Source: Prochlorococcus sp. AG-363-A16
GTDB taxonomy: Bacteria; Cyanobacteriota; Cyanobacteriia; PCC-6307; Cyanobiaceae
Length of the DNA: 64,000 bases
Direction of reading: 5' to 3'
Assembly (NCBI GenBank): GCA_003280345.1
Contig: QCFB01000001.1
Span: 62,001-126,000 of the forward strand
The position numbers were made by a program, and so were the translations under genes. This document shows, piece by piece, positions 26,545 through 54,474 of the stretch. The notes beneath the pieces are model-generated. The model was not told the DNA's origin. It saw only the letters and a program-made list of their open reading frames with translations, and ran no database searches. Each line of letters begins with the position of its first letter. Position 1 is the first letter of the stretch.

Positions 26545-27624
26545 ATGCCTAAACGTCTCCCTGTAACCATTATCACTGGGTTTCTTGGCGCCGGGAAAAC
26601 AACACTCCTACGCCATTTATTGACAAACAGTGGCAAACGTTTGGCTGTAATGGTTAATGAATTTGGTACTGTTGGTATTGATGGAGATCTAATTAAAAGT
26701 TGTGGCTTTTGCCCTGATGAGGAAATTGAAGGGAGATTAATTGAATTAAATAATGGCTGTTTATGCTGCACCGTTCAGGATGATTTTCTGCCCACTATGG
26801 AGAAGCTATTGACGCATGCTAATCAATTGGACGGCATTGTTATAGAGACCAGTGGATTAGCTTTACCGCTTCCTCTCATTCATGCACTTGATTGGCCAGC
26901 AATTCGTCCAAGTGTTCATATTAATGGGGTCATTACTCTTGTTGATGGGGAAGCATTGTCATGTGGCAGTCCTGTTGGTGATAGCTCGGCAATTGAACAA
27001 CAAAGAAAAGATGATCCGAGCCTTGATCATTTAACCCCAATTGATGAATTATTTACTGACCAACTCTCTTCTGCTGATTTGGTTTTAATTAGTAGGGCTG
27101 ACTGCGTTTCTTCTGCTGCGCTAAAAAGTGTTGAAAATGATTTGAAGGACCGTATTCATGATAAAACCCCAATATTACCTATTAGCAACGGAAAAATTGA
27201 TACCAAATTAATACTTGGCATTCAACATTTCGAAGAACATTCAAGGCATAATGAAGTATTAATAGATAATGCTCACCATGATGATGATCATGATCATCAT
27301 CATCATCATGCAAATGTATCTAGTGCTTTCTTACGTCTAGATTTAGTAGTTGATCGAGAGTCTTTCGAGGCTCTTTTGCCTGAACTTGCTAAAAGCTGTC
27401 AAATTTTACGTTTAAAGGGCCGATGTTGGCTTCCTGGCAAGCTATTGCCCCTGCAAGTTCAAATGGTTGGCAATCGTGTAAGTACCTGGTTTGAACAAGC
27501 ACCAGAAACCGCTTGGCGCCCTAAAAACTCTGGATTTGAAATTGTTGTCCTAAGCTTTAATGAAGATGCAGCAGAAATTATTCAGTCGACTTGCGAGAGA
27601 AATTTTGAGCCCTGTAAAAAGTAA
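26545..27624 (+). CDS. CobW/COG0523-family GTPase (metal chaperone)
   Basis: G3E GTPase with Walker A GFLGAGKTTLL at residue 9, the metal-binding CxCC motif in NGCLCCTVQDD near 73, and a NKxD-like site changed to SRADC near 190. A histidine/aspartate-rich loop near residues 240-255 (six consecutive His preceded by HDDDHDH) is typical of zinc-handling COG0523 proteins. The C-terminal CobW domain follows. No cobalamin genes are adjacent, so a zinc or other metal role is more likely than cobalt (inference). Confidence 0.88.
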   Translation: MPKRLPVTIITGFLGAGKTTLLRHLLTNSGKRLAVMVNEFGTVGIDGDLIKSCGFCPDEEIEGRLIELNNGCLCCTVQDDFLPTMEKLLTHANQLDGIVIETSGLALPLPLIHALDWPAIRPSVHINGVITLVDGEALSCGSPVGDSSAIEQQRKDDPSLDHLTPIDELFTDQLSSADLVLISRADCVSSAALKSVENDLKDRIHDKTPILPISNGKIDTKLILGIQHFEEHSRHNEVLIDNAHHDDDHDHHHHHANVSSAFLRLDLVVDRESFEALLPELAKSCQILRLKGRCWLPGKLLPLQVQMVGNRVSTWFEQAPETAWRPKNSGFEIVVLSFNEDAAEIIQSTCERNFEPCKK

Positions 27625-51272: not shown

Positions 51273-51775
51273 TAATTTCTACTACCCAATTCATTTTATT
51301 ATATACTTCGTAAGTTATCTTTATCATTTAGTTCTTTAAAATAAAATTCTTTATGTTTTTTTGCGTTATTAGGTATTTATTTGCTTGAAACTGATTAACA
51401 TTTAATATGATTTGAAACAGAGGATACAACCATTCGTATCATTTTATACATCTCACCCTCTCTCCTGATTTTAATTTGTCTGTATTTCTTATCCAACTCC
51501 TATAGCAGCATCAATTTGAGCTATCTCTAGAATATATGTAAATCATTTATTAAATATATTAGTGATTTGTTACTCGAAATGTTTTATACTATCCTTAGTA
51601 ATAAATCATTTTAAATTATTTTAGTATCCTCTTCTTGATTCAACGATTGCCTTCGAGACTCTGGTTTTCATCGCTTTCATTTTATTAGAGGATCTACCAT
51701 GTTTTAATTCGAGCTTCCTGATTTATTCTTTAAGCCGTTTAATTAAAAAACAATCACAATTCCACATCTCCCCTA
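51273..51775. other. Intergenic stretch (503 bases) before the FutC-like gene
   Basis: No coding frame, tRNA-like fold or strong inverted repeat could be supported. The region is AT-rich, divergent between the VTT gene and the iron ABC ATPase, and should hold both promoters. Confidence 0.5.
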
Positions 51776-52846
51776 TTGAAATTGGTTGATACAAGAATAA
51801 AAATTGAGAATCTCTGGCACCATTATGGAGCTTCTTTTATTGATGACGGATGGTCACTTAAATCTATTGATTTTAATCTTGGTCAAGGAGAACTTGTTGG
51901 CTTATTAGGCCCATCTGGTTGTGGCAAAACAACTTTGCTTAGGTTAATAGCAGGATTTGAAATACCTAATAAGGGAATTATATCCATTAATGATCAAGTG
52001 GTTGCATCACCTTCTTATTCTTTACCTCCTGAGCGTCGAGGGGTTGGAATGGTTTTTCAGGATTATGCACTCTTTCCTCATTTAGATGCCTGGTCTAATG
52101 CATGTTTCGGATTACGTAGAGGTCAGGACCCATCAAGGGCAGAATGGTTATTTGATTTGCTTGGCCTTTCAGAATACAAATGTCGTTTTCCACATGAACT
52201 ATCTGGAGGTCAAAAACAACGTCTTGCTTTGGCAAGAGCTCTTGCACCTGGAACTTCTCTTGTTGTTTTAGATGAACCTTTTTCTAATTTAGATGTGGAA
52301 GTGCGTCATAGGCTTAGAAGTCAACTTTCTGGTGTTCTTAAGTCCTGCTCAGCTAGCGCAATCTTTGTTACTCATGATCCTCAGGAAGCCTTGGCTATAT
52401 GTGACAGAGTTGCAGTTATGCAAGATGGCGAATTACATCAGTGTTCTACGCCAACTGAATTAGTTAACCAACCTGCTACGCCTTTTGTTGGACGTTTTGT
52501 TTTACAAAGAAATGTTTTGCCTGTTCAATTTAAAGGGGACCACCTCTTAACACCTATAGGTACTATTGCTAAACCTGATCAATTAAGCAAAGGCTCTTCT
52601 ACTGAGTTAATGTTAGATGAACAAGGACTTCAAATTGAACCACACCCAAATGGATCAGGTTTAGTTCAAGGAAGAGAGTTTTTTGGTAGCCATTGGATAT
52701 TTAGAGTAGAAATATGCAATCAGATTCTTAGAGTATGGCATCCAATTTCAACAACGTTAACTAGTGGTGATAGATGTAAAGTAAATTTTAGATATGGGCA
52801 TTGTGGGTTGTTGTTTCCAAATGCAATACCTTGCCCATTAGTTTAA
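51776..52846 (+). CDS. futC: Ferric iron ABC transporter ATPase (FutC/FbpC-like)
   Basis: ATPase of the iron(III) family with Walker A GPSGCGKTT near residue 43, Q-loop VFQDYALFPH, signature LSGGQKQRLALARAL, Walker B VVLDEPFSNLD and switch VTHDPQEAL, followed by a C-terminal TOBE-like regulatory domain (about residues 240-356). The neighbours Crp-type regulator and ferritin support iron transport. The permease and binding-protein genes are not in the window. TTG start at 51776. Confidence 0.85.
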   Translation: MKLVDTRIKIENLWHHYGASFIDDGWSLKSIDFNLGQGELVGLLGPSGCGKTTLLRLIAGFEIPNKGIISINDQVVASPSYSLPPERRGVGMVFQDYALFPHLDAWSNACFGLRRGQDPSRAEWLFDLLGLSEYKCRFPHELSGGQKQRLALARALAPGTSLVVLDEPFSNLDVEVRHRLRSQLSGVLKSCSASAIFVTHDPQEALAICDRVAVMQDGELHQCSTPTELVNQPATPFVGRFVLQRNVLPVQFKGDHLLTPIGTIAKPDQLSKGSSTELMLDEQGLQIEPHPNGSGLVQGREFFGSHWIFRVEICNQILRVWHPISTTLTSGDRCKVNFRYGHCGLLFPNAIPCPLV

Positions 52847-52997: not shown

Positions 52998-53618
52998 TCA
53001 TGCAGCAAGGATTGAAAATGGAGAAGTTTCTATAAGAGTTGGTGCAACACGTAAAATTGGCTCTCCATTGGGAACATTTAACAAATCGGCTGTTCTTAGT
53101 CTTGAAATTAATCTTGTAGAAGTTACACGAGTTGACCCAATTAATTCTCCAATTCGCTCATGTGTAAGTCTAAATGGTAGATGACACCAATTTCCACATC
53201 TTCTCCCCAATCTATTAACTAATAATGCAAATAAAGCTTGTAGTCTTTGTTCTGCATTGCCTAAGTGCCTTATTCGTAGTAACTGAAGTGTCCATTCGTT
53301 CACTGGATCAAACCCTAGGTCATTAGAATCACCATTCTTTGTTGTAAAACTAAGTGGGGTAAGCGCTTCAACACATACACCTTCACTGCACAATCTTTCA
53401 GTTTGTAATTTGTCTCCTGATTGAAGAAACGCAAGGGTCATTCCTTCAGTTTCTTCACATGGGCAATAGACACGAGCTATGCCTTCCATTACTTCAATAC
53501 ACCTACCACTTCCTTTCGGAGATGGATCAACTAGTACAGATTGACCAGTTGGAATCCTTACAGGAATCATCGGGTCATCTGTCATGAAACAGAAAGTCAT
53601 CTTTAACGAATCGGACAT
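52998..53618 (-). CDS. Crp/Fnr family transcription regulator
   Basis: Regulator with an N-terminal cyclic-nucleotide-type beta-roll (GQSVLVDPSPKGSGRCIEVMEG, split; to about 110) and a C-terminal winged helix with LTHERIGELIGSTRVTSTRLI. Several cysteines in the N-terminal part (CPCEE, RLCSEGVC) could bind metal or a cluster. I chose ATG at 53618; a TTG at 53666 would add 16 residues and ATG 53600 would remove six. It is flanked by ferritin and futC, so iron control is likely (inference). Its regulatory signal lies at 53720-53743. Confidence 0.85.
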   Translation of the reverse strand: MSDSLKMTFCFMTDDPMIPVRIPTGQSVLVDPSPKGSGRCIEVMEGIARVYCPCEETEGMTLAFLQSGDKLQTERLCSEGVCVEALTPLSFTTKNGDSNDLGFDPVNEWTLQLLRIRHLGNAEQRLQALFALLVNRLGRRCGNWCHLPFRLTHERIGELIGSTRVTSTRLISRLRTADLLNVPNGEPILRVAPTLIETSPFSILAA

Positions 53619-53719
53619 TTGTTGAGAAGTGATCTCAACATATACGAATGAGCACCACTTTTGCAACCGATTCTCAATAGCAGTTAATTGTTGCGATTTC
53701 TTTGACGATAAGACGCTTG

Positions 53720-53743
53720 CCTATGTATCATTTGATACATAGG
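53720..53743 (-). promoter_or_regulatory. Perfect palindrome of TGTA-N8-TACA form upstream of the Crp-type gene
   Basis: An 11-base inverted repeat with a two-base centre reads TGTA-N8-TACA at its core (53724-53739), the consensus bound by NtcA in cyanobacteria, and compatible with other Crp-family regulators. It lies about 100 bases before the ATG at 53618. I could not find a -10 box at the usual distance for NtcA activation, so repression or autoregulation is possible. Confidence 0.6.
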
Positions 53744-53852
53744 AGCTGTTGAGATGTGAATGCTCATAAAAGAAACTTGTATCGAGGTTTAAACAATTAA
53801 TAAAGCAATTAACCGGTCAAAACTAAATGTTAGCAATGGTTCATAGTAATTA

Positions 53853-53894
53853 TCATTAACTATATTAGTTTGTCAAAATTAATATAGTTAATGA
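53853..53894. promoter_or_regulatory. 15-bp inverted repeat between ferritin and the Crp-type gene
   Basis: Arms at 53853-53867 and 53880-53894 are perfect 15-base complements (CATTAACTATATTA and its complement at the core) around a 12-base loop. Neither strand has a T run after it. It is 62 bases after the ferritin stop and could be a T-less terminator, an mRNA stabilising stem or a double operator. Confidence 0.5.
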
Positions 53895-53955
53895 ATAAGT
53901 TTGTTATGTCTAAATATCGAGATATTACGTACAGGACTCCCCATAAGATAATTCC

Positions 53956-54474
53956 TTAGCCACCTGGGCCACCTTTTACCGTCGTTAATGCTGTTCCATC
54001 TAAGAACTGTTGGTCTAGAAGAAGTAAAGCCGCACTATTTTCACCAGCCAGCCGAAGTCTTTTTCGCACGAACCTTGCTTCTGCTTCCTCCTGAAGTTGT
54101 TCTGCTACAAACCAATCGAGCATTGCAGTTGCACTTCGTTCTCCTGCTTGCTCCGCTATTGCATAGATACGGTTTATAGAGGCTGTTACTGCTTGCTCCA
54201 TTTCATAAACTTGATCAAAGATTGCTTGAGTCGAAGTCCAACTTCTTTGAGGGGCCTCTACACTCGGTAGTTCAACCTGTTCATCACAATCAACTAGATA
54301 CCCTATTAACCGATCAGCATGTCCTCTTTCCTCTTGGCTTTTTGTTTGCATATATGACGAGAAACCAGCAAGATCTTTTTCTCTTAGCCAAATTGACATT
54401 GCAAGATATGTATGACTAGCCTGAAACTCACAGGAGAGATGATTGTTGATCGCCTTTGTTAGATCATGCATCAA
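53956..54474 (-). CDS. ftn: Ferritin
   Basis: Iron-storage protein. Ferroxidase-site residues are visible: E17 region in SCEFQASHTYL, EERGHADRL near residue 48 with Glu and His, and EQLQEEAEA near 127. Four-helix bundle followed by a short fifth helix; the C-terminus ends with glycines. Length 172 aa is normal. Paired TATACT boxes lie just upstream of the start. Confidence 0.95.
   Translation of the reverse strand: MMHDLTKAINNHLSCEFQASHTYLAMSIWLREKDLAGFSSYMQTKSQEERGHADRLIGYLVDCDEQVELPSVEAPQRSWTSTQAIFDQVYEMEQAVTASINRIYAIAEQAGERSATAMLDWFVAEQLQEEAEARFVRKRLRLAGENSAALLLLDQQFLDGTALTTVKGGPGG

Follow-up and report, generated by a model that had tools for sequence, protein, structure and literature searches.

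In Prochlorococcus, where very few regulators are kept and iron is often limiting, a gene for a Crp-family protein lies in a cluster with genes for ferritin and a FutC-like ATPase. Upstream of this gene in Prochlorococcus sp. AG-363-A16 is a palindrome of the form recognised by NtcA. This raises the question of whether the palindrome is a genuine operator and, if so, whether it is used by NtcA or by another protein of the Crp family. An operator of NtcA-identical form carries a risk of being misread as nitrogen control, or leaves room for real cross-talk. We analysed a stretch of 64,000 nucleotides around the palindrome (the window; positions are those of the window throughout) and compared the locus with those of relatives.

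Organisation of the locus

The features of the locus are listed in Table 1. Pfam matches bear out the neighbours named in the initial annotation, a ferritin and a FutC-like ATPase; the latter is encoded downstream of the regulator and in the opposite direction. The gene order in relatives is ferritin1, regulator, ferritin2 (on the opposite strand), futC and, sometimes, a second Crp-family gene; the window's genome lacks ferritin2. The second Crp-family gene (28-38% identical) stands beside futC, approximately +1500 to +3900 from the regulator (loci L032, L035-L042, L055, L056, L075, and L094), and a few of these loci have a TGTRA-type palindrome near its start.

The start codon of the regulator is most likely ATG 53600 rather than TTG 53666, because its orthologues start at a conserved M[ST]FRFLP and several of them have in-frame stops just upstream of it. 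The stretch between TTG 53666 and ATG 53600 is promoter DNA under this gene model, which puts about 120 bp between the palindrome and the start codon downstream of it.

A 46-aa ORF begins 6 nt downstream of the regulator, where relatives have a 90-aa ORF. Peptides of 43-47 aa with the motif CKKxKCSKWKGGKCxCG directly follow the regulator in the window, L035, L074, L079, L088, and L089, and most relatives have an unrelated ORF of ~90 aa and ferritin2 at this place. The peptide and the ~90-aa ORF/ferritin2 occur together in none of the loci examined. Aphanothece and BO 8801 have two regulator copies per genome, one with each type of downstream ORF.

Table 1. Features of the regulator locus, in window coordinates.
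Feature	Position	Strand	Basis
Second operator copy, CGTATCATTTTATACA (predicted)	51435..51450	.	Divergent gap upstream of futC
FutC-like ABC transporter ATPase	51776..52846	-> (+)	PF00005; iron specificity inferred
Cys/Lys-rich ORF, 46 aa	52851..52991	(-)	ORF; same motif in L035, L074, L079, L088, L089
Crp-family regulator with conserved cysteines	52998..53600	(-)	PF13545 and PF00325 HTH, orthologues, Crp/NtcA-like fold
Fur-like box 2, TTGAGATCACTTCTCAA, over predicted start site	53622..53638	(-)	Conserved inverted repeat
Predicted -10 TATATG, 16-bp spacer	53639..53644	(-)	Sequence and alignment with relatives
-35 TTGCAA	53661..53666	(-)	TTGCAA in 79/79 aligned promoters; used as anchor of the alignment, with only [TA]TGCAA allowed
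Fur-like box 1, GCTATTGAGAATCGGTTGC, overlapping -35	53663..53681	(-)	TATTGAGAATCGNTTGCAAAA block almost unchanged across 79 promoters
Crp-type operator (predicted)	53720..53743	.	Core TGTATCATTTGATACA at 53724-53739; sequence, conserved position, top PWM score
Ferritin (ferritin1)	53956..54474	(-)	PF00210; upstream of regulator, same strand

The palindrome and its position upstream of the regulator

The palindrome reads CCTATGTATCA-TT-TGATACATAGG and has arms of 11 bp. It had been described as a perfect 24-base palindrome; the inverted repeat is present, but it is not a perfect 24-mer because the central T/T does not pair. The TGTA-N8-TACA form reported within it was recovered by a pattern search of the window, and the GTAN8TAC core is present as well (GTATCATTTGATAC, 53725-53738). 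We rejected the TGTAN8TACA form as significant in itself, as its frequency is at the level of chance: it occurs twice in the window, where 0.94 would be expected, and 25 times per strand in the whole genome, where the reversed control gives 24. Arms of at least 11 bp separated by no more than 4 were found at one further place in the 64 kb, where ten simulated sequences gave an expectation of approximately 0.2. This other place is a perfect 26-bp palindrome (27278-27303) in a low-complexity ATGATG/CATCAT run.

For the window and 78 relatives, we sought the best TGTRA-N6-TYACA match in each region upstream of the regulator, leaving its place free. In 31 of the 79 promoters, including the window (-73), the best site falls 72-74 bp before the -35; among promoters of less than 50% identity, 24/52 have a site at this distance, with approximately 1.4 expected. 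The formal probability of this positional conservation, 3e-24, is inflated by relatedness, which does not affect the basic result. A group of related promoters has a Crp-type site at -60/-61 instead, and shifts of 11-12 bp are seen between related promoters (-61 vs -72). A PWM built from the ferritin2 and futC promoters only picked out the same place in 30/79 regulator promoters and -60/-61 in 9/79, and gave the window the highest score of all 79. Consensus and thresholds were chosen after the relatives had been inspected, and motif counts here and below are therefore descriptive; tests with the reversed motif and with the cross-promoter matrix served as safeguards.

The initial annotation had proposed conservation in relatives as a check on the palindrome, and its position is indeed kept. 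A conserved site before the regulator's own gene, common to the neighbouring genes, is a feature of many Prochlorococcus, not of freshwater relatives or the L086-L111 clade. Freshwater orthologues retain the regulator and the Fur-like element described below, and no TGTA site was found in them. In the L086-L111 clade of Prochlorococcus there is no convincing Crp-type site before the regulator; candidate sites at -42/-43 were rejected because they did not score above shuffled sequence.

Recurrence of the motif in the cluster

In pattern searches of the 1.74-Mb genome that allowed up to one mismatch, TGTATCATTTNATACA is found at only two places, the palindrome and the second copy upstream of futC, which are 2.3 kb apart and both in the iron-linked cluster. 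Relatives carry the motif (TGTATCATTTATYACA and similar) upstream of ferritin2 as well. With at most one mismatch, it is present upstream of futC in 16/56 cases and of ferritin2 in 5/62 (reversed control, 0); with up to three mismatches, these numbers rise to 26/56 and 25/62 (reversed motif, 1-2). Exact matches to TGTATCATTTNNNACA number 26 across the 141 genomes searched in the family, and 20 of them lie within ~3 kb of the regulator gene; the reversed pattern has three matches in total. None of 24 genomes without the regulator has an exact match. We rejected this joint loss as proof of binding: it is not independent, because most of the regulator-less genomes sampled also lack ferritin2 and futC, the whole cluster being missing.

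Away from the cluster, a match in G060:C30 is inside a long hairpin. A perfect operator core at L161:383-398, on a short contig and distant from any cluster gene, forms the tip of a longer hairpin (GGAAGCCGGAA...TTCCGGCTTCC); this hairpin may be a terminator or the end of a mobile element. Matches in G099, G029, and G117 were taken as background, because no matches are weaker than these and a similar number was obtained with the reversed control.

These results bear on two readings in which the palindrome would not be an operator. A chance palindrome would agree with the frequency of TGTAN8TACA alone, but is contradicted by the positional conservation and the clustering of the motif, and is hardly credible. 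The palindrome could also be part of the ferritin terminator or another RNA hairpin, being an inverted repeat in intergenic DNA downstream of ferritin, with a separate inverted repeat with 18-bp arms at 53853-53894. Against this, no T run follows the palindrome, conservation is concentrated at the motif ends and not in base pairing, and the imperfect repeats of relatives keep an equal distance from the -35 and also occur before other genes; we regard a hairpin function as very improbable. Instead, the palindrome is almost certainly a real, conserved Crp-type operator.

The separate repeat, located between ferritin and the operator, is AT-rich and has 18 paired bases with one mismatch (TCATTAACTATATTA...TAATATAGTTAATGA) and no GC stem. 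It is possibly the ferritin terminator.

A Fur-like double element in the regulator promoter

The predicted regulator promoter, TTGCAA-N16-TATATG, is located downstream of the palindrome. In the aligned relatives, a -10 follows approximately 16-17 bp past the -35, and then an inverted repeat that spans the expected start. Of the two Fur-like boxes, box 1 overlaps the -35 and box 2 is this inverted repeat; the TATTGAGAATCGNTTGCAAAA block of box 1 is present in nearly all 79 promoters. Matches to the 19-bp Fur consensus are weak in the window (box 1, 12/19; box 2, 10/19). They are 14/19 for box 1 and 15-16/19 for box 2 in a clade comprising L091, L102-L111 and similar loci, with 16/19 for box 2 in L102 and L107. 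Judged by their position, the boxes of the window are the same elements as those of the relatives. The genome encodes two FUR-family proteins. In L052, the block TTGCTATTGAGAATC is duplicated ~45 bp upstream, ahead of the regulator, which suggests a repeat expansion of the Fur-like element. Neither the double element nor the conserved cysteines of the regulator figured in the initial annotation.

The regulator protein

The helix-turn-helix of the regulator matches PF13545 (32 bits, cut-off 27) and PF00325 (23.4 bits, cut-off 21); a cyclic-nucleotide-binding domain was not matched in Pfam. The protein scores below every NCBIfam cut-off, including those for NtcA (TIGR03697; 27.8 bits, cut-off 244.95) and PtrA (NF053664; 40.4 bits, cut-off 300), and is not assigned to any named NCBIfam family. 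An AlphaFold2 model (pLDDT 86.6) has the architecture of β-roll, dimer helix, and helix-turn-helix. The nearest solved folds are the NtcA structures 9guj and 2xgx (E 2.8e-12, TM ~0.7). Judging from this model, the regulator is a member of the Crp/FNR superfamily with a fold nearest to NtcA.

Each of six cysteines (C46, C48, C71, C76, C135, C139) and two histidines (H112, H147) is shared by at least 80 of 81 close orthologues. The cysteines are kept in at least 38/40 sequences of a wider set, with few losses in distant orthologues. The conservation of the cysteines (and histidines) suggests that the regulator is possibly a metal, Fe-S, or redox sensor. In the open literature, which leaves most subscription papers outside its scope, we found no description of this regulator or of its MED4 neighbours, which we take to be PMM0804-0807.

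Which protein binds the operator?

Given that the recognition helices of the regulator (STRVTSTRL) and NtcA (STRVTITRL) are nearly equal, a similar half-site would be expected for the two proteins. The pattern TRVTxTR is common to NtcA, the PtrA-like protein, and the regulator, so the binder is not decidable from sequence alone. Among 36 distinct orthologous sites upstream of the regulator, six fit GTAN8TAC, 15 pair GTA with GTG, and five pair GTG with GTG. At the glnA promoters that served as the NtcA control, GTAN8TAC is kept in 11 of 17 relatives.

Binding of NtcA, which would put the iron regulator and futC under the control of nitrogen status, has in its favour the strict GTAN8TAC form of the palindrome, both half-sites of which are TGTATCA as in the L130 glnA site (TGTATCAGCTGATACA), and the presence of a true NtcA in the genome (contig C5, 367.6 bits). 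Set against this are the low retention of GTAN8TAC at the orthologous sites relative to glnA, the concentration of the motif at the iron cluster, and the geometry of the promoter. The centre of the palindrome is ~100 bp upstream of the predicted transcription start, far from the NtcA class II position. As the initial annotation had pointed out, the -10 box is missing at the NtcA distance: we found no TANNNT ~22 bp downstream, where the sequence is AGAAAT. Control by NtcA is, in our view, unlikely. Another Crp paralogue, either the PtrA-like protein (contig C20) or Crp2, might bind instead and link phosphate or another signal to the cluster. A PtrA-like protein with the helix ITRVTVTRM is encoded (193.6 bits, below the cut-off of 300), and Crp2 genes are found next to futC in the clusters of some relatives. 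However, Crp2 is missing from most loci bearing the motif and was not found in the window's genome, and there is no reason why a phosphate regulator should be confined to an iron cluster; we consider this alternative improbable. The cluster's own regulator is favoured because few orthologous sites are of the GTAN8TAC form and the motif is concentrated locally, and it is probably the protein that binds the operator. The initial annotation had offered both self-regulation by the Crp-type protein and nitrogen control by NtcA. The former is now the favoured option, given the motif at ferritin2 and futC, its concentration at the regulator, and the 6/36 count above; the latter is less favoured.

Proposed mechanism

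Auto-regulation by the Crp-family protein, acting together with Fur, is the best reading of the locus and one that we consider reasonably likely. Against it stand the distance of ~100 bp, which is no clean Crp class I position; the freshwater orthologues and the L086-L111 clade, which do not show the site before the regulator; the weak Fur boxes of the window; the recognition helices of NtcA and the PtrA-like protein, which resemble that of the regulator; and the TGTATCA half-site of a glnA NtcA site. The palindrome, its kept position, its copies and concentration in the cluster, and the conserved cysteines are observed; the binding protein, whether it activates or represses, and what it senses are inferences, as follows. 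The palindrome would be an operator for a dimer, most plausibly of the Crp-family protein encoded just downstream. This regulator would recognise TGTATCA/TGTRA half-sites upstream of two genes here, its own and futC, and upstream of ferritin2 too in relatives, giving a small iron regulon centred on the cluster. The Fur-type double element would cover the -35 and the start site, such that iron-loaded Fur represses the regulator promoter and iron depletion releases it. The Crp site ~100 bp upstream of the start could then tune this promoter, with the regulator sensing iron, an Fe-S cluster, or redox state through its conserved cysteines. More tentatively, the regulator could be an undescribed cysteine-based iron/Fe-S sensor that, with Fur, runs a cluster-centred regulon for iron storage and uptake throughout Prochlorococcus via TGTATCATTTNATACA, its own gene included.

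The combination of a conserved, apparently uncharacterised Crp-family regulator with conserved cysteines, a defined operator, and few targets makes iron control in Prochlorococcus directly testable. The list of targets is short: the regulator itself, ferritin, and the FutC-like transporter.

Comparison with known systems

The regulator and its operator resemble NtcA and its operators in the near-identical recognition helix, the TGTATCA half-site, and the nearest fold. They differ in the profile score (27.8 vs 244.95 bits), the conserved cysteines, the acceptance of GTG half-sites by the orthologous sites, and a site off the class II distance. Like PtrA, the regulator is a picocyanobacterial Crp paralogue with a Crp helix-turn-helix, but its score (40.4) is far from the cut-off of 300 and its gene lies among iron genes (ferritin, FutC-like). 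E. coli CRP, which binds TGTGA-N6-TCACA, shares the fold and the spacing of half-sites, and several relatives have TGTGA half-sites. In contrast to CRP, the regulator has no Pfam match for cyclic-nucleotide binding, and Val replaces Glu181 of the recognition helix, a substitution that lets A stand in for G at position four of TGTGA. FNR and CprK, both of the Crp/FNR superfamily, use cysteines to detect redox state or oxygen. The regulator gives weak matches to their profiles and is likewise rich in conserved cysteines that it may use, but these are arranged as CPC, CSEGVC, and CGxWC, and the site is not TTGAT-N4-ATCAA. Finally, the regulator promoter is similar to Fur-repressed promoters in having one Fur-like box at the -35 and another at the start, which match the consensus at 14/19 and 16/19 in some relatives; it differs from them in the weak match of the window and in the additional Crp-type site upstream.
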